Below, one piece after another: positions 6,910 through 58,961 of a stretch of DNA of 64,000 nt. Source of the DNA: an uncultured Clostridia bacterium (GTDB lineage Bacteria > Bacillota > Clostridia > Oscillospirales > Ruminococcaceae). Within the stretch, counting starts at the first letter, position 1. Every line of letters begins with the position of its first letter. Position numbers and translations under genes: made by a program. Under the pieces are notes generated by a model. It had not been told where the DNA came from. It did no database searches and saw only the letters and a program-made list of their open reading frames with translations. The DNA is taken from the NCBI GenBank assembly GCA_944382845.1, contig CALWNN010000082.1, positions 1 to 64,000 of the forward strand. Reading direction: 5' to 3'.

Positions 6910-7716
6910 TCAGTAAAGTACATTAAGCTCTTCCGCAGATTTGTAAATAGCTTGTGCAATAGCATCTGCATACTCGTAAAAATTCTTATCAAAAAGCTCA
7001 TTGTCAATTTCTTCAGTTATAAATCCCATTTCCACAAGACAGCTTGGCATTTCAGTCACACTGTTTACATAGTAGTTGGAGTATTGATCGCCGATATATC
7101 CATAACAAACGCCTCTGTTGTTTGAAACGCCGACTTCGGCAAAAGCATCCATTATGTTCTGCGCAAGAAGAGTGTCCTCGGCAGGTTCCTTATTGGACAC
7201 CCATATCTCAACACCGCTTCCGTCAAAGGCACTGTTTCTGTGAAGTGAAATAAAAAGATCTGCATTCGCTTCGTTTGCAATATCACATCTTTCCTGAAGT
7301 CCAATAAATGTGTCATCGTTTCTTGTAAGAATAACATCTATGCCCAGCTCCTCAAGTCTGTCGGCTACTTCAAGAGCCATTGCAAGATTATCGTCCTTTT
7401 CAAGCCTTGTTTCATAATAATCTGTACATCCGCCGTCCTCGCCACCATGCCCTGCATCAATAACAACAGTACAATTGAGAGTTCTGTCTACATCCTCTTC
7501 AACTTCCGGCTCGGAAGAATTATTTTTAAAACTTGAACCGATAATTTGTTTTTCAACATTTTTATTATTTGATTCACTGTCACCTGACGCCAAAAAAACT
7601 ATAAGAGAAATTACTCCTATAATAATTATTAAAAATATTGCCGCAGCAATAAATACTCTGTCCCATAATACTATGTATCCACGGTTTGAACCGCTGTTTT
7701 CACTGTTTCTGTTCAT
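6910..7716 (-). CDS. N-acetylmuramoyl-L-alanine amidase (Amidase_3), membrane anchored
   Basis: This zinc enzyme cleaves the amide between muramic acid and the peptide stem of peptidoglycan. The start at 7716 follows AGAGGAC and gives 268 residues; a longer frame to 7770 lacks a ribosome binding site. A hydrophobic helix at about residues 20-45 anchors it, followed by a Ser/Asn/Glu-rich linker. The catalytic domain shows VVIDAGHGGEDGG, a downstream Glu ligand region, ISLHRNS with the second His, and VEMGFI with the catalytic Glu. Related to CwlD/LytC-type enzymes; no SH3 or SPOR repeats are present, so its target site is unclear. Confidence 0.88.
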   Translation of the reverse strand: MNRNSENSGSNRGYIVLWDRVFIAAAIFLIIIIGVISLIVFLASGDSESNNKNVEKQIIGSSFKNNSSEPEVEEDVDRTLNCTVVIDAGHGGEDGGCTDYYETRLEKDDNLAMALEVADRLEELGIDVILTRNDDTFIGLQERCDIANEANADLFISLHRNSAFDGSGVEIWVSNKEPAEDTLLAQNIMDAFAEVGVSNNRGVCYGYIGDQYSNYYVNSVTEMPSCLVEMGFITEEIDNELFDKNFYEYADAIAQAIYKSAEELNVLY

Positions 7717-18349: not shown

Positions 18350-18593
18350 ACGCAAAAAACTTCGCCCCATAAACTGGGACGAAGCATAAGTTCCGTGGTA
18401 CCACCCAAATTACCTGCTCATTAAAAAACAGGTCACTCGATATCTTTAACGCAGACATACGTTGCAGGTTATTCCCCCGCACGGCTCAGGAGCAGCCACC
18501 ATATTCCTTGCAGGAATTTTCACCGTCCATTCCCTCTCTTAACGCTCGAAAATTATGGATAAATCCGTCACAGCCATTAACTTATCATAAACA
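18350..18593 (-). promoter_or_regulatory. T-box riboswitch (alanine) of alaS
   Basis: The minus-strand leader contains the T-box core GGGTGGTACCACGG (core at 18395-18404), which pairs with the uncharged tRNA acceptor end, followed by a terminator. Upstream the Stem I region contains GGTGAAAATTCC and GGCTGCTCC, where a GCT alanine specifier codon is available. A GACCTG...CAGGT stem precedes the antiterminator. Uncharged tRNA-Ala should therefore switch alaS on. Confidence 0.88.
18354..18385 (-). terminator. T-box terminator hairpin
   Basis: CTTCGTCCCA and TGGGGCGAAG form the stem, with TTTTTTG after it on the minus strand. It competes with the T-box antiterminator. Confidence 0.85.
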
Positions 18594-53177: not shown

Positions 53178-53300
53178 TTTATAACCAAGTCGCCGATTTC
53201 CCCTGCCGGGTATTCGGCAGGTCTGCCTTCTATAGGGGGCGGGTTCCATTTAGTCTTTCAGTGGGGGTATAATCCCTGAGGAGCAAAGTTCCTCGGCGAC
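53178..53300 (+). repeat. dispersed modular repeat, copy 4 (truncated)
   Basis: It has TTATAACCAAGTCGCCGA, CCTGCCGGGTATTCGGCAGG, TTCCATTTAGTCTTTCAGTGG and CCTGAGGAGCAAAG, then stops. The GTTGC/GCAAC and GAAAGAG hairpin units are missing. Its end lies at the left boundary of the accessory island, so the rest may have been removed by the insertion. Confidence 0.8.
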
Positions 53301-53522: not shown

Positions 53523-53702
53523 ATGAAAAGAATTTATTAAGAAGCGGGTGGCACATATCAAAGACAGGGCGATTATGCACTTTCCGATCTGAAAATACCG
53601 ACCGAAAAAGAAGTTGAAATCGGAGTTTGGTGACAGCGGCATCGGCGGTATGTGAAGCGTCGCCACCGCATTCGGTATTGCAATCTGCTGACTGTTGGTA
53701 CA
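53523..53702 (+). pseudogene. tnpV-like transposon gene remnant
   Basis: After CAGGAG, ATG at 53523 gives MKRIY, a TAA, EAGGTYQRQGDYALSDLKIP, TEKEVEIGVW, a TGA, then QRHRRYVKRRHRIRYCNLL. The pieces match the start of transposon-encoded TnpV proteins (MKRIYEEAGGTY...GIWGQRHxxYLK). Two stops in one frame and loss of the 3' part show decay. The frame merges with the 3' end of the sirtuin gene on the opposite strand, marking a junction. Confidence 0.65.
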
Positions 53703-53703
53703 T

Positions 53704-54543
53704 TCATACCCCGCATACCTGCCGAAGATCGGACAACACATCGCTCAAAGGACCGTCCAATCCAAATGACCGCGCTTTGATGTCTTCGGTGATGTAGATT
53801 TCGCCCAGATTGATGGTCACATAGGCGGAATTGGGTTCCTGTGCCACCAGACGCATGAGCGGGGCCTTGATGAGTTGGTTGCGCCAGCCGACGCCCAGCT
53901 CCAGCACCACCAGTTTCTTGCCGTGGTACCGCTCTAAAAAGGCCTGATACCGTCCCTGGGCTGCGGTATCAGAGATAAAGTTGGGGCCTCCCTCCATATG
54001 GATTTCCATTGGACCGCCGCACTTGGGGCAGCGTGGAACGAGGTCCGATGGCACCTTCCCGCCCTGCTCTGCGGCGGCCATCTTTTCCGCCAATTCCAGT
54101 GTAGGATACAAGGTTTCATGGCAGGGGCGGGCGCACTGCATGGTCAGTCAGTTGCCCTCCACCTCATAGATTTTTTCCGGGGCGAAGCCGCTCATCTCAA
54201 AGTGGCACTCCCCGTTGGAGGTGATGATGAAATAGTCCTTGCTCCCCACGATGGCTCGTAGATCCTGCATGACCGGCGTTGGCTGATACAGACCGCAGTA
54301 GTGGTGGATCAGGCGGGACCAGAAGCCCCACTTCTCCTCCTCGGTCGGCCAGCGACCTGCCATGCCCTGCAAAATGCACCGTAAACCATATTTCCGCTTG
54401 AGATCGCCGAACAGCTCCTCGAAAGCCTGATTATCGGCAAAGAGATGCAGCCCTTCGGTGATGGACAGGCCGTTGCTGGCCCCGACCAGCAGAGCGTCAG
54501 CTTCCTGAATTGCGGTACAGATCTTCTGATAAGTTTCATTCAT
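53704..54543 (-). pseudogene. second sirtuin-like gene, interrupted by in-frame TGA
   Basis: Two stretches in the same frame (54543-54151 and 54147-53704) together give a SIR2 protein of about 279 aa. The TGA at 54148-54150 falls where relatives have a residue after EVEGN; TGG (Trp) to TGA is the simplest explanation. NAD-site GASNGLS, zinc pairs CARPC and CPKC are present, but the catalytic Gln/His position reads E (YEVEGN) and the TTNQD motif reads TSNGE, so it was probably a non-catalytic partner even when intact. It overlaps the active copy by 8 bp. Confidence 0.78.
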
Positions 54544-55438
54544 GGCTCATATGCTCCTCTCCTGCCGTCAGCTTCACGGCATCGCTCAGTACCGTGGCAA
54601 TGTCCTCCCGGATGGTCAGTCCCTTGTCAGCCAGCTGCTGAGGGAGGAGTGCGTCTTTGGGGTTGATAGTAATATAAAAAGCCTGTGGAAGCGTATAGGT
54701 CAGATTCCAGAAAGGCTCCTGAATAAACATTGGCGTCATGCGACCTACGCCCAGTTCAAGAAAAAGAATTTTACGGTTCTTGTTTGCCTGTAAAAATTCG
54801 TTGATCTTACGATATTCATCCTTGTACTTTTTGCCCTCCAGGAAAGTATACCCACGCACCCATGGCTCCAGCTCCGCGCCGCACTTAGGACAGCGGGGAA
54901 TCAATTCCGTAGGAATGCACAGATTTTCGTCAATGGCGTCGTTCATAGCATATATCATGTCACGGTTGTAGAATATCTCATCGTGACAGCGGCGGCTGCA
55001 CTGGAAGTAGCGGGAATCCCCCTGAATGGCGCTGAGCTTCTCTTCCGGCATCACTCTGGTAAACTGAAAATCCTGATTGGTTGTCATAATGTGATAGTTT
55101 TTGCCTCTTAGCAGATTCATCAGATCATAATAGGGCTGGCCTGTGGGACATTCGTATTCCATGTAGCACATGCGAGCCAGAAAGGCCCAACGAGCCTCAG
55201 ATGAAGGATAACGGTAGTAGAACCCGTTGAACGCCCCCACATAACCGTATTTTGCGCCAAATTCCCCCAGGTACTTCCGGAACATTGCATCGTTGCTGTA
55301 GAAAAAATCAAAACCACAGGCGGCTGACATTCCTGCCGCCGCTCCCACCAGTATTGCGTCAGATTGGGCAATTGCTTCCGCCAGCTTCTCTACATTCTGA
55401 AGATGGTTGTTATCCTTGAAATAAGTTTTACTTTCCAT
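54536..55438 (-). CDS. class-M-like sirtuin (SIR2 family, NAD-dependent)
   Basis: The 300-aa protein has LVGAAAGMSAACG for NAD binding, TTNQD (Asn121) and IQGD with Gln139 in place of the usual catalytic His, and zinc cysteines C147, C151, C183, C186. The Asn/Gln pair is what is known for SirTM enzymes, which ADP-ribosylate lipoylated carrier proteins. The macrodomain, lipoate ligase and GcvH-L genes that go with typical SirTM are absent. ATG 55438 lies 12 bases after GAAAGGA; the ATG at 55450 abuts it. The gene is GC-rich compared with the core genome. Confidence 0.82.
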   Translation of the reverse strand: MESKTYFKDNNHLQNVEKLAEAIAQSDAILVGAAAGMSAACGFDFFYSNDAMFRKYLGEFGAKYGYVGAFNGFYYRYPSSEARWAFLARMCYMEYECPTGQPYYDLMNLLRGKNYHIMTTNQDFQFTRVMPEEKLSAIQGDSRYFQCSRRCHDEIFYNRDMIYAMNDAIDENLCIPTELIPRCPKCGAELEPWVRGYTFLEGKKYKDEYRKINEFLQANKNRKILFLELGVGRMTPMFIQEPFWNLTYTLPQAFYITINPKDALLPQQLADKGLTIREDIATVLSDAVKLTAGEEHMSHE

Positions 55439-55443
55439 CAGTA

Positions 55444-55472
55444 TTGACATTCCTTTCAGTTGATGTTATTAT
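55444..55472 (+). promoter_or_regulatory. putative promoter of Rrf2-patatin unit
   Basis: TTGACA (55444-55449) and TATTAT (55467-55472) have 17-bp spacing. The -10 overlaps the left arm of the inverted repeat, so a bound regulator would block it. Confidence 0.45.
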
Positions 55473-55513
55473 TAAAATTACATAATGATATTATACCATG
55501 TAATTTTAATAAT
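55468..55513. promoter_or_regulatory. perfect 16-bp inverted repeat, putative operator
   Basis: ATTATTAAAATTACAT (55468-55483) and its exact reverse complement (55498-55513) are separated by 14 bp. The right arm lies in the spacer of the sirtuin promoter and the left arm overlaps the -10 of the Rrf2 promoter. Position and symmetry fit an autoregulated divergent operator for the Rrf2 protein. It could also fold as a cruciform. Confidence 0.65.
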
Positions 55514-55518
55514 TACAA
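55490..55518 (-). promoter_or_regulatory. promoter of the sirtuin pair
   Basis: Minus-strand TTGTAA (55513-55518) and TATAAT (55490-55495) have 17-bp spacing. Confidence 0.6.
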
Positions 55519-55549
55519 GTGGCTAAAGCAAATTTTTTTGAGGTGACCT

Positions 55550-56005
55550 ATGAAATATTCCACAAAATTAAGCGATACTCTCCACATTCTGGCATTTCTC
55601 AGTCTGGGAGCAGATGAGCGGCTGACCAGCGCCAGAATAGCAGAGAGCGTAAAAACCAACCCGGCATACATCAGACAGCTGATGGCGGCGTTAAAAAGTG
55701 CAGGCATTATTACAACCACACGGCGACAAGCCAATGCCGAACTGACTCGCTCTCCCGAGAAAATCACAATGCTGGATGTCTATCGAGCGGTGGAGGGTGA
55801 AAAGCCTCTGCTTCATCCGGACGTAGACACAAATCCCGAATGCGGCGTGGGGATACATATTCAGCTTGCCATCGCTGATTTTTATCGTGACGTCCAGCAG
55901 GTTGCAGAGCAGAAGATGTCCGAGATTACCCTGGCGGATATTCTGGAAAGTTATCACAAAAAAATTGAAGGACTGGATTTATATAAGGGAGCAGCATACA
56001 AATAA
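55550..56005 (+). CDS. Rrf2-family transcriptional regulator
   Basis: The 151-aa protein starts MKYSTKLSDTLHILAFLSLG and has the winged helix (TSARIAESVKTNPAYIRQLMAALKSAGI) and ITMLDVYRAVEGEKPLL of Rrf2 proteins. Fe-S members have three conserved cysteines; here only one is in the sensing loop (NPECGVG), so a single-thiol or non-redox signal is likely. GAGGTGA precedes the ATG. It is divergent from the sirtuins and heads the patatin unit with 22 bp to the next gene. Confidence 0.88.
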   Translation: MKYSTKLSDTLHILAFLSLGADERLTSARIAESVKTNPAYIRQLMAALKSAGIITTTRRQANAELTRSPEKITMLDVYRAVEGEKPLLHPDVDTNPECGVGIHIQLAIADFYRDVQQVAEQKMSEITLADILESYHKKIEGLDLYKGAAYK

Positions 56006-56027
56006 TAACGGATTGGAGATGGCACTT

Positions 56028-56894
56028 ATGAGCACACATAAAAAGATAGGACTGGTGGTTGAGGGCGGCGGAATGAAGTGCGCCTACAACGCAGCAATTC
56101 TGGACGCTTTTCTGGACGAGGGGATAACCTTTGACTATTGCATCGGCGTTTCCGCCGGTTCAGGAAATCTGGTCTCCTACCTGGCAGGACAGCGGGGACG
56201 AAATCTGCGCTTTTTTACCGAGCATATTCATGACCCGGAATACTTTGGACTGAAAAGCCTGCTGAAAACCGGCGACTTGTTTGGCATTCAACATATTTAT
56301 GGGGACCTGACACGTGCAAACGGGAAAGACCCGCTGGACTTCCAAGCATTTATGAAAAATCCTACTGAATACGAGGCGGTGGTCACCAATGCCCTGACGG
56401 GTCGGCCTGAATACTTTGGTAAGGTCGCCATGAAGCAGGATGACTACCGACTGATCATGGCCTCCAGCGCTATCCCGGTTGTCTGTCATCCGGTGGAGCT
56501 GAATGGAGTCCCCTATTTTGACGGCGGACTCACCGACGCTATCCCCGTCCGCCGGGCATTAGAAAAGGGATGTGACCGACTGGTGGTCATCCTTTCCAAA
56601 AATCGGAACTATGTGAAGAAGCCTCAGGGAATGCGCCCTTTATATCGGCTGTCTTGTCGCAAATACCCTAAAATTGTGAATGCAATTGAACACCGACATA
56701 TTGCGTACAACGATAACTTTAAGGAAGTTTTTGCACTGGAACAAGCGGGAATCGCCTTTGTTCTTGCCCCCAGCCACCCCTTCCATGTGAGCACCTACTC
56801 CATGAAAGAAGATGATGAACGAAAGCTGTACGCACTGGGTATGCGGGATTTTGCCGATCAAAAAGAAAACCTGCGGAAATTTTTATTTGCTTGA
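56028..56894 (+). CDS. patatin-like phospholipase
   Basis: The 288-aa protein has the oxyanion loop VVEGGGMKCAYNAAIL, nucleophile Ser in CIGVSAGSGN and the catalytic Asp in YFDGGLTDAIPV, so the Ser-Asp dyad is complete. Family members hydrolyse acyl esters of membrane lipids. It resembles the compact bacterial YjjU-like group. The ATG at 56028 lies nine bases after GGAG; an ATG nine bases earlier abuts it. No signal peptide is seen, so it acts in the cytoplasm or at the inner membrane face. Confidence 0.88.
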   Translation: MSTHKKIGLVVEGGGMKCAYNAAILDAFLDEGITFDYCIGVSAGSGNLVSYLAGQRGRNLRFFTEHIHDPEYFGLKSLLKTGDLFGIQHIYGDLTRANGKDPLDFQAFMKNPTEYEAVVTNALTGRPEYFGKVAMKQDDYRLIMASSAIPVVCHPVELNGVPYFDGGLTDAIPVRRALEKGCDRLVVILSKNRNYVKKPQGMRPLYRLSCRKYPKIVNAIEHRHIAYNDNFKEVFALEQAGIAFVLAPSHPFHVSTYSMKEDDERKLYALGMRDFADQKENLRKFLFA

Positions 56895-56900
56895 TGGCAC

Positions 56901-57089
56901 ATGAAAGCAGAAAAAGTACGGACGGTCCCGACATGGGCGTATTTACTCGTGGAACAGGCTCATGCTCTTGGCATTCCTGCTTTTATGAAAGAATACCTTG
57001 TTCCCATCGTGGGCAAGGCAAACATGATACAGGAGTTCCCGGAAGCGTTCAACCGGGTGTTGGAGGTACATAGAAAATGGCACAAGTAG
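56901..57089 (+). CDS. 62-aa helical protein coupled to radical SAM gene
   Basis: ATG lies six bases after the patatin stop; the frame ends 13 bp inside the radical SAM gene. The sequence (VPTWAYLLVEQAHALGIPAF; RVLEVHRKWHK) is amphipathic with no cysteines. Codon use matches the GC-rich block, and the overlap with the next start suggests coupled translation. The function is unknown; it might be a remnant of a longer gene. Confidence 0.5.
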   Translation: MKAEKVRTVPTWAYLLVEQAHALGIPAFMKEYLVPIVGKANMIQEFPEAFNRVLEVHRKWHK

Positions 57090-58033
57090 AAATGAACGGA
57101 ATTCTTATCGGAGAAGTTGAGACAAAGAACATCATGACAAAATCCAGCCTGCCGGTAGGCGGTTATTCGGTCAATCCTTATGTGGGCTGCACCCACGCCT
57201 GCAAATACTGCTATGCGTCCTTTATGAAGCGGTTTACCGGACACACGGAGGAATGGGGCACATTCCTTGATGTGAAGCACTGGCCGGAGATTAAAAACCC
57301 GAAGAAATATGCCGGACAGCGCATCGTGATCGGTTCCGTGACGGACGGTTACCTACCGCAGGAAGATCAGTTCGGCAATACCAGAAAGCTGTTGGAGCAG
57401 CTCAGAGGCAGCGGCGCAGATATTTTGATCTGTACCAAATCCGACCTTGTGGTGCGTGACATTGATCTTCTGAAAGAGCTTGGACAGGTTACGGTATCGT
57501 GGTCTATCAATACGCTTGATGAGGGTTTCAAGAATGATATGGACAGCGCCGTAAGCATCAAGCGGCGGCTTGCTGCCATGAAGCAGGTTTACGATGCAGG
57601 CATCCGCACCGTCTGTTTTGTTGCGCCGGTTTTTCCGGACATTACGGATTTTGAGGCAATCTTTGAACGGGTAAAGGATCAGTGCGACCTGTTCTGGCTG
57701 GAAAACCTGAACCTGCGCGGCGGCTTCAAAAAGACGATCATGGATTATATATCAGAGAAGCATCCCGACCTTGTGCCGTTATATAACGAAATCTATAACA
57801 AGCACGACCGCAGCTATTTCAAAGTTCTGGAAGAAAAAGCCGAAGAAATGGCAAAGAAATATGACTGTCCCTTTGTTGATAATGAAATGCCCTACGGCAG
57901 AGTGCCTCAGGGACATCCGATCATCGTAGATTATTTCTATCATGAAGAAGTCCGGGGAACAGAGAATACAGGAAGGCGGAACGTCAGCGCAGGCAAGCAC
58001 AAAAAACTTATTAGGAAAACCCAAACCCCTTAA
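57077..58033 (+). CDS. radical SAM protein (mobile pair protein B-like)
   Basis: The 318-aa protein has the cluster motif C38-x3-C42-x2-C45 (YVGCTHACKYCYASF) and a TIM-barrel of the SplB-related group (GSVTDGYLPQE; TVSWSINTLDEGFKNDM). It resembles the family named radical SAM mobile pair protein B, known from mobile elements; its reaction is unknown. GGAGGT lies before the ATG. The usual partner protein A was not seen in the window. Its C-terminus is basic (AGKHKKLIRKTQTP). Confidence 0.8.
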   Translation: MAQVEMNGILIGEVETKNIMTKSSLPVGGYSVNPYVGCTHACKYCYASFMKRFTGHTEEWGTFLDVKHWPEIKNPKKYAGQRIVIGSVTDGYLPQEDQFGNTRKLLEQLRGSGADILICTKSDLVVRDIDLLKELGQVTVSWSINTLDEGFKNDMDSAVSIKRRLAAMKQVYDAGIRTVCFVAPVFPDITDFEAIFERVKDQCDLFWLENLNLRGGFKKTIMDYISEKHPDLVPLYNEIYNKHDRSYFKVLEEKAEEMAKKYDCPFVDNEMPYGRVPQGHPIIVDYFYHEEVRGTENTGRRNVSAGKHKKLIRKTQTP

Positions 58034-58147: not shown

Positions 58148-58961
58148 TTAGTAAAAATGCTCATATTCGTAGGTTTTCATGATATTTTCTTTAAAATACC
58201 TATCTGCTCTTTGAGCAAATATTTTAGGCGTTGATATTTCACAGTTCAATCCCACACTGTCCCAAGTTGCAGCCCATAACATATATGGTTCAAGGGGCAA
58301 TATGCTTTTGACTTTAATTTCCCCTCCATCTCGAACCAGCAGACCATCTTCTGCAATTTTTTTCATATCAAAATACAAACGTGCTCCTACAGTATATTCT
58401 GTATTTTTATCCATCTGAATTTGCCCTTTTTGCTTTGAATTGACCACTACTTCCCCAGTAGTTCCACTACCAAACAATATATAATCTCTCAATTCAATAG
58501 GGTCTCCCAAAAGCGCTCCTATGGGTTCGTTCTCTTTACATATATTTTGGCTGTTTTGTAGGTTCCAACTTTTCAAACAACCATCTTTTTTTATTTGCTC
58601 ATAATTTTCTTTTGTAGTGCTGTGAATTAAAACTTCGTTTTCATACTCTCTCAAAAATGGTTCATTGAAAGAATGCCCCTTATATTTATTTAATGCTTGA
58701 ACATAATCTTCTTCAGAAACAGCAAGAATAATATTTTTTTCCAATTGAACTGTAGTATCCGACAAAATCACATAAAGCCATTTGCCAATGCACAACATAT
58801 TTCTTGCTGACTTTCAACGTATATGCACATCCATTTTTGCTTCCGCATCGCATTTTATATGATTCGTCATTTAAAACAAAAACAATCCACGAATCATCAT
58901 ACTTTGTATTTGTAATTGGGTTAACATCAGTTTCTATGAACTCATCACATCTAAAAATCAT
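58148..58961 (-). pseudogene. frameshifted protein with faint ADP-ribosyltransferase-like features
   Basis: Translation starts at ATG 58961 (AGAGGA seven bases before) and is good up to GCAYTLK; dropping one A in the run near 58838-58840 continues in the frame KSARNMLCIGKWLYVI down to 58148, for about 270 aa. The C-terminal part has IHSTTKENYEQIKKDG, YILFGSGTTGE and GARLYFDMKKIAEDGLLVRD, reminiscent of KptA/ART folds, but not enough for a firm call. It is AT-rich, unlike the neighbouring island genes. TTGTGT-N17-TATAAT lies upstream (about 59020 on the minus strand). Confidence 0.5.

Follow-up and report, generated by a model that had tools for sequence, protein, structure and literature searches.

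A probable electrophile-stress cassette of two unlike sirtuins without a neighbouring macrodomain in gut Clostridia

Introduction

Class M sirtuins (SirTMs) were defined as writer sirtuins linked to a macrodomain and carrying a QG motif in place of HG (PMC4518038). Oxidative stress is what SirTM operons answer to (PMC4518038, PMC11490716), the one SirTM target known so far is, as stated in PMC11490716, GcvH-L, and the literature that brings together Rrf2, sirtuin and macrodomain leads to the SirTM operon of S. aureus. Here we describe a related cassette in a 64,000-nucleotide stretch of DNA (the window: contig CALWNN010000082.1 of assembly GCA_944382845.1, positions 1 to 64,000) from an uncultured Clostridia bacterium of the Ruminococcaceae. 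Its core is made up of a SirTM-type sirtuin (SirA), a second, altered sirtuin (SirC) and a divergent Rrf2 regulator. Sequence comparisons suggest that it is probably an electrophile- or thiol-stress-induced ADP-ribosylation cassette of two sirtuins without a neighbouring macrodomain, carried on what looks like an acquired, partly decayed segment. A sequence-only reading of the window had proposed a larger module that extended over a patatin, a 62-residue protein and a radical SAM protein; it caught a real conserved cassette but misplaced its borders, as the core is Rrf2, SirA and SirC.

FAM118A and FAM118B are unlike paired sirtuins that strengthen each other, and antiphage sirtuins have also been described (PMC12700824). 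The cassette shares with FAM118A/FAM118B the presence of two unlike sirtuin paralogues and differs in subfamily, FAM118A and FAM118B belonging to SIR2_2, and in that the pairing here is known from genes alone. Among Rrf2 regulators, SifR is a single-cysteine quinone sensor with which YwnA has been grouped, and SifR and HypR both bind TGTAA-N9-TTACA (PMC9218516). No account of a SirA/SirC pair, nor of a sirtuin together with a patatin and an Rrf2 protein, was found in a literature search that left subscription journals mostly outside. The family opens a route to asking what role SirTM-type ADP-ribosylation plays outside the lipoyl operon and whether bacterial sirtuins work as unlike pairs. Its regulator and operator point to a testable inducer, and the active site of its second sirtuin is altered in a strictly conserved manner.

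Conservation of the Rrf2-SirA-SirC Core

In the window SirA (54536-55450, minus strand, 304 residues, intact) and SirC (53704-54543, minus strand) lie in tandem, and the Rrf2 gene (55550-56005, plus strand) diverges from SirA at a distance of 99 bp, with two operator-like sites in between. A search with SirA through 394 genomes of the order revealed tandem sirtuins in five of them (the window's genome, G174, G329, G194 and G327), and these sort into three kinds, SirA, SirB and SirC. With an alignment of four SirC proteins as query, relatives were fetched from named genomes, and the best 80 of 101 confirmed loci were taken. Four of these turned out to be ordinary SirTMs at 35-38% (L130-L133), three of them adjoined by a macrodomain, and were set aside, which left 76 loci of at least 54% identity. 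The hosts are mostly gut Oscillospiraceae and Lachnospiraceae (Flavonifractor, Gemmiger, Faecalibacterium, Blautia). SirA adjoins SirC in 70 of the 76 loci; four of the remaining six end at most 324 bp away at a contig border, and two (L126, L127) are truly without SirA. Of these 70 loci, 18 also contain SirB. Among the 63 loci in which SirA is present and the upstream sequence reaches 700 bp or more, 55 have a divergent Rrf2 gene. The association of Rrf2, SirA and SirC is more than chance and recurs in many gut Clostridia. The neighbours of the homologues are not random; random neighbours were the outcome that the sequence-only reading had named as speaking against a module.

A tree of 101 proteins resolves SirA, SirB, SirC and ordinary SirTMs as one clade each (support 97/94, 100/100, 100/100 and 100/100, respectively); the SirA and SirC clades each span Clostridia and Bacilli, and the L114 protein has a long branch within SirA. 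At class level SirC is rare, with matches at E 1e-60 in only two of 391 genomes, one of them the window's own. Sirtuins of low identity that stand alone in genomes of the order were considered as hidden SirC proteins and discarded, the best among 16 chosen genomes reaching 38% as compared to at least 54% in the 76 loci; a very distant SirC among those 16 genomes is still conceivable, because the SirC of lactobacilli falls to 35%.

Active Sites of the Two Sirtuins

How far do the two proteins resemble class M sirtuins? Residue numbers given here are those of SpySirTM (PMC4518038), transferred through an alignment with the solved SirTM 5a3a, whose chain is numbered ten higher by our count. Counts refer to proteins of more than 200 residues from unbroken open reading frames (ORFs), plus the window SirC with an X at its stop codon. 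SirA matches 5a3a with E 1.6e-47 and has kept, in the window copy as in the family, the equivalents of Asn118, Asp120 and Gln137 (67 of 67 each) and of Arg192 (66 of 67). Like SirTMs it thus has QG instead of the catalytic HG, Gln137 taking the place of the catalytic His, together with Asn118 and Arg192. It departs from them in the GVGx[NT]TP motif, where the [NT] place is occupied by M, L or I in all 67 proteins, the following T and P being kept in all 67. In SirB all four active-site residues are present in 16 of 16 proteins.

SirC is also related to SirTMs by sequence, an intact SirC from a relative matching 5a3a with E 6e-40, and the four zinc cysteines are kept in 77 to 79 of 79 proteins. 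Its active site is a different one. Glu stands at position 137 in 79 of 79 proteins, so that the class M QG is absent; in 76 of these proteins the place of Arg192 holds A, E, G, V, I or a gap, and in one more P, so that at least 77 are without the class M Arg as well. Asn118 is present in all 79, position 120 is Glu in 75, and the GVGx[NT]TP place mostly reads GIGWRNQ. Near-complete residue switches between SirC and the rest occur in three columns only; these coincide with or adjoin the positions of Asn118, Gln137 and GVGx[NT]TP, and all three are near the NAD site. Since the Glu is strictly conserved, it argues for a function of SirC rather than for decay. The description of the genes as two tandem class-M-like sirtuins therefore holds by sequence relationship and fails by active site, because SirC is devoid of the class M hallmark residues.

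The window copy of SirC is moreover interrupted by an in-frame TGA at codon 132, whereas SirC without an internal stop is found in relatives. Because of this codon the window SirC may be two fragments or a pseudogene, and an assembly error is possible. The stop probably disables the local pair, while the frames of SirA, Rrf2 and patatin are intact. It could be imagined that SirC removes the modification set by SirA as an ADP-ribosyl hydrolase, or serves as its dedicated reader, acting through the Glu at 137 and replacing the Zn-macrodomain of the described SirTM systems; in the first case writer and eraser would be built from one fold; we consider this improbable.

The Rrf2 Regulator and Its Operator

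The regulator is YwnA/SifR-like (PF02082, E 4e-28), the closest solved structure by sequence being YwnA 1xd7 (E 5.5e-21), and carries a single invariant cysteine (codon 98, 55841-55843). This one cysteine is invariant in 57 of 57 Rrf2 proteins, and no other alignment column contains at least 30% Cys. Two candidate Rrf2-type operators of the form GTWA-N9-TWAC lie between the divergent genes, one proximal to SirA (55465-55481) and one proximal to Rrf2 (55500-55516), the latter extending with its flanking bases to a full TGTAA-N9-TTACA (55499-55517). A search for perfect inverted repeats across the intergenic regions yielded few repeats, and a motif was used instead that derives from inverted repeats and the alignment of nine intergenic regions, eight relatives among them. 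It occurs in each of the 56 SirA/Rrf2 intergenic regions tested, 55 from the loci and one from the window, with two or more sites in 48 of them; against the 104 sites in total, base-shuffled sequences contained 0.9 on average and never more than 4. In held-out regions, unlike the eight aligned relatives and unlike one another, a site was found in 30 of 30 and at least two in 24 (shuffles: mean 0.56, maximum 4). Strict sites are confined to the cassette to a large extent, as 123 of 128 in 902,195 bp of loci lie within 400 bp of the start of SirA, SirC, Rrf2 or patatin. The operators even persist at SirA in four loci in which Rrf2 is not adjacent (L069, L073, L075, L083).

With one conserved cysteine, an operator of the TGTAA-N9-TTACA type and YwnA as nearest structure, the protein resembles the SifR/YwnA/HypR branch, and differs in its neighbours, which are sirtuins and a patatin here and catechol and iron genes in the case of SifR (PMC9218516). 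By its single cysteine and the form of its operator the window Rrf2 appears to be a SifR-type monothiol regulator, for which sensing of electrophiles is predicted. The alternative function that the sequence-only reading had offered, a redox-triggered response, is backed by these two features.

Two strict operators 34 bp apart were also seen away from the sirtuins, upstream of one gene in L083 (4547-4597), which by its look we take to encode a flavoprotein-like protein. In L133, a Veillonellaceae metagenome-assembled genome, a GTAA-N9-TTAC site (6939-6955) lies between an ordinary macrodomain-SirTM pair and a divergent Rrf2 gene (34% identity). Given this arrangement, control by Rrf2 may have preceded the SirA-SirC cassette. 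No operator was found in the sequence scanned ahead of the macrodomain-SirTM pair in the window's own genome.

The Patatin and a Possible Mode of Action

Behind Rrf2 the window encodes a patatin-like lipase (56028-56894, plus strand, start possibly at 56019) with PF01734 and DUF6363 and the GxSxG and DGG motifs. A patatin gene directly follows the divergent Rrf2 gene in 17 of the 54 loci whose sequence continues there for 1 kb or more (14 of 55 by a stricter rule), and three further loci show another linkage: Rrf2-patatin-SirA-SirC in L100, SirA-SirC-patatin in L096, and in L093 SirA-SirC followed by a run of its own made up of Rrf2-patatin-pairA-pairB, pairA and pairB being the radical SAM proteins discussed below. 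The operator is present at the Rrf2-patatin units of L093, L100 and G156, and also upstream of the patatin in L096. Close patatins (at least 74% identity, the next best being 47%) were found in five of the 394 genomes of the order. The gene is intact in three of the five SirC genomes and in fragments in G327, as compared to two of the 389 others, giving p 9.8e-6, or 7.6e-8 if the G327 fragments are counted, in both cases uncorrected for relatedness. One of these two is G156, whose sirtuin side is not visible because the sequence ends 215 bp beyond Rrf2. In the class-level sample, too, patatin matches at E 1e-80 are limited to two of 391 genomes, one of them the window's own. The association of the patatin with the sirtuins is more than chance, and the best reading of its distribution is that of an optional regulon member rather than a part of the core.

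How could these proteins act together? Reduced Rrf2 would hold both promoters shut and would be released when a quinone-like electrophile reacts with its single cysteine. SirA would then spend NAD+ to mono-ADP-ribosylate a target that is unlikely to be a lipoyl carrier encoded in the same operon, and SirC may act with SirA as partner, as regulator or by a second activity. The patatin could remodel or clear acyl lipids in the same response.

Macrodomains, Lipoyl Carriers and Neighbouring Genes

In contrast to SirTMs with a Zn-macrodomain, with which SirA shares the active-site residues named above and the theme of oxidative stress (PMC4518038, PMC11490716), the cassette contains a regular second sirtuin, and for 75 of the 76 loci the flanks at hand showed no macrodomain (one query, blastp E 1e-6; many flanks were shorter than the 7 kb requested). 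The remaining locus has one in its flank. Elsewhere in the genomes a full-length match to the SirTM-type macrodomain was found in G000, G174 and G327, and only a partial one in G329 and G194. In the window's genome an ordinary macrodomain-SirTM pair is located on another contig (C79; L053:6058-7645), so that two SirTM-type systems coexist there. A second, apparent difference concerns the target: a motif scan of the ORFs, done by motif only and without a profile search, revealed no clear lipoyl carrier, its 18 matches being 13 at Rrf2 positions, four in a flavin-reductase motif context and one in an unassigned 187-residue ORF of L075.

The genes around the cassette vary. An HD-type protein is found in 17 of the 76 Clostridial loci, in 13 of them directly after SirC. 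Other recurrent families are AraC (24), DUF3786-type (22) and CGGC (11) proteins and a family of 24 members that we take to be ArsR-like; flavin reductase genes recur as well. In one Paenibacillus and one Mesobacillus plasmid (L199:1680-6226, L200:7977-13027) the genes after SirA-SirC encode an HD protein, a nicotinate phosphoribosyltransferase and a hydrolase of the isochorismatase family. The hydrolase is nicotinamidase-like (3o90, E 4e-30) but reaches 41 bits against a curated nicotinamidase cut-off of 174. Such NAD salvage genes would fit consumption of NAD+ by the cassette. In Lactiplantibacillus and Levilactobacillus plasmids the SirC that comes after SirA carries an additional fused domain (L201:8010-10182, L202:7992-10182), which is Cupin_5 in L201, the one tested.

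The Radical SAM Pair and the Acquired Segment

The unit facing the sirtuins, described by the sequence-only reading as Rrf2, patatin, small ORF and radical SAM, exists as far as the genes are concerned; the last two are not parts of the cassette. The 62-residue ORF (56901-57089, plus strand) is not a new small protein, and its place in the module lapses: it is what is left of the C-terminus of protein A of the radical SAM mobile pair (pairA), matching positions 167-220 of the 220 of TIGR04471 (54 of 220 positions). About 170 N-terminal residues are missing, among them the radical SAM cysteines. It is followed by an intact protein B of the pair (pairB, 57077-58033, plus strand; TIGR04470, 600 bits, cut-off 410). 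The window thus shares with the mobile pair a complete pairB and the C-terminus of pairA and differs in the truncation of pairA; the pair itself is mostly found without SirC.

Is the pair nevertheless tied to the sirtuins? It occurs in the flanks of 24 of the 76 loci, and pairB is enriched in SirC genomes (5 of 5 versus 24 of 330, p 3.5e-6, the 335 genomes of the order searched for pairB not having been matched one by one to the 394 searched with SirA). Yet 24 of the 29 genomes with pairB lie outside the five SirC genomes, and the window copy is closest to pairs away from SirA and SirC, namely those of L219 and L220 (pairB 94 and 91%, pairA remnant 72 and 79%), as compared to 78-82% for pairB and 48-62% for pairA of pairs beside sirtuins. 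Four other pairs away from SirA and SirC, at 59-62% for pairA, are no closer than the sirtuin-adjacent ones. Given the kinship with pairs not beside SirA/SirC, the junction behind the patatin is best read as a later recombination. For this window the radical SAM protein was rejected as part of the module core, its copy being of separate descent despite the over-representation in SirC genomes.

Elsewhere, pairB, a macrodomain and a SirTM form a tight run in L218 (6655-9162, G072), a locus of 14 kb without a match to pairA. In L219 a macrodomain-SirTM pair lies about 5 kb from the radical SAM pair and comes after a radical SAM/SPASM protein (ACGX family) and a protein that resembles nitroreductases, with a score below the cut-off.

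The segment with the cassette, a compositionally distinct stretch at about 53.5-58.1 kb, has about 49% GC in a window of about 40%. It looks acquired because the two 2-kb bins of 54001-58000 have a GC content of 0.496 and 0.491 and the other 30 bins at most 0.447. At its edge lies a degraded transposon protein gene, a TnpV remnant (53541-53759, plus strand), of which adjacent pieces of one frame, searched apart, are collinear on PF14198 (1-26, E 0.0011; 28-63, E 0.006), both matches falling below the curated cut-off. No near-DNA matches were found in plasmids and phages. In a comparison of insertion sites among genomes of the same genus the flanking genes were present on different contigs or in another order.

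Alternative Explanations

Sirtuins and patatins are known as defence effectors, and the sequence-only reading had considered defence by NAD-dependent ADP-ribosylation together with lipid attack. In an anti-phage system of this kind SirC or SirA would be an NADase sensor or effector and the patatin a membrane-attacking effector, and the location of the cassette on mobile DNA (the TnpV remnant, a relaxase near the cassette in G174, the Bacilli plasmids) would be compatible with it. Against this, SirA and the SirC fragments of the window gave no PADLOC match and the patatin one to a generic phospholipase effector (E 2.1e-4), while 31 SirC and four ordinary SirTM proteins gave a single weak ThsA match (E 0.0096); these scans covered the window proteins and the 35 proteins just named, and not other SirA proteins or neighbour genes. 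SirC was absent from viral contigs, and SirA had one match in a 'phage' record (5.5 kb, 34%). Furthermore, the regulator is of an electrophile-sensing kind, and the recurrent neighbours (ArsR-like, AraC, CGGC, DUF3786, flavin reductase; outside the PADLOC scan) do not speak for defence. With no convincing PADLOC match and no viral SirC, the proposal of a defence system found no backing; we regard it as very unlikely, and the cassette looks more like a stress response than like virus defence. Somewhat less remote, albeit still unlikely, is that Rrf2, SirA and SirC form one unit on a metal or redox resistance island on which the patatin and the radical SAM protein are fellow travellers without shared function. 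The lack of the patatin in most loci, the separate origin of the window radical SAM protein and the varying flanks are in line with such hitch-hiking, but the patatin is tied to the sirtuins in several arrangements, shares their operator at the four places mentioned above, and co-occurs with SirC at the p-values given for the order sample. A third explanation concerns the local copy only and not the family: the stop in SirC, the truncated pairA and the broken TnpV could mean that the window holds an inert relic from which nothing is expressed to effect. This is possible and, in our view, rather doubtful, as the frames of SirA, Rrf2, patatin and pairB are open and comparison with G174 gives dN/dS values of 0.061 (patatin), 0.052 (pairB) and 0.109 (SirC), ratios that are rough because dS is high (1.7, 2.7 and 0.8, respectively) and undefined for SirA and Rrf2.

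The reading preferred here, a stress-induced cassette of two sirtuins under Rrf2 control, has to face several observations that weigh against it. The loci are mutually related, and all counts and p-values are inflated for this reason. By script, a divergent Rrf2 is lacking in eight of the 63 loci that could be tested: L076 was passed over because of an extended ORF call, in L100 the gene is co-linear, L085 offers 842 bp upstream only, in L069 Rrf2 is 4 kb away, and in L073, L075, L083 and L098 there is none in the locus, L098 having no operator either. In the two Bacilli plasmids the sequence scanned ahead of SirA contained no operator and the listed genes include no Rrf2, and Rrf2 control may for this reason be a Clostridial feature. 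The zinc cysteines are lost in two SirA proteins of lactobacilli, the two that were aligned. No patatin stands behind Rrf2 in 37 of 54 loci, and G132, the second of the two order genomes with a close patatin outside the SirC group, has this gene by itself, with no operator in the sequence scanned there. Finally, the local pair may do nothing, because the window SirC has a stop.

Further Observations in the Window

A dispersed repeat of about 100 bp (53179-53276) adjoins the segment. A 901-bp query over it had at least 48 matches in the window's own genome, nearly all to the repeat stretch (40 of 180 candidates scored), and no match to a repeat of this type in four other genomes of the genus. 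On the other side, two overlapping ORFs of 216 and 82 residues (58148-58961, minus strand, GC 0.334) have weak matches only (PTS_2-RNA, E 0.087; CpXC, E 0.011) and are perhaps one broken gene. Far from the cassette, a T-box leader (Rfam RF00230, 104 bits) was found at 18372-18580 on the minus strand.

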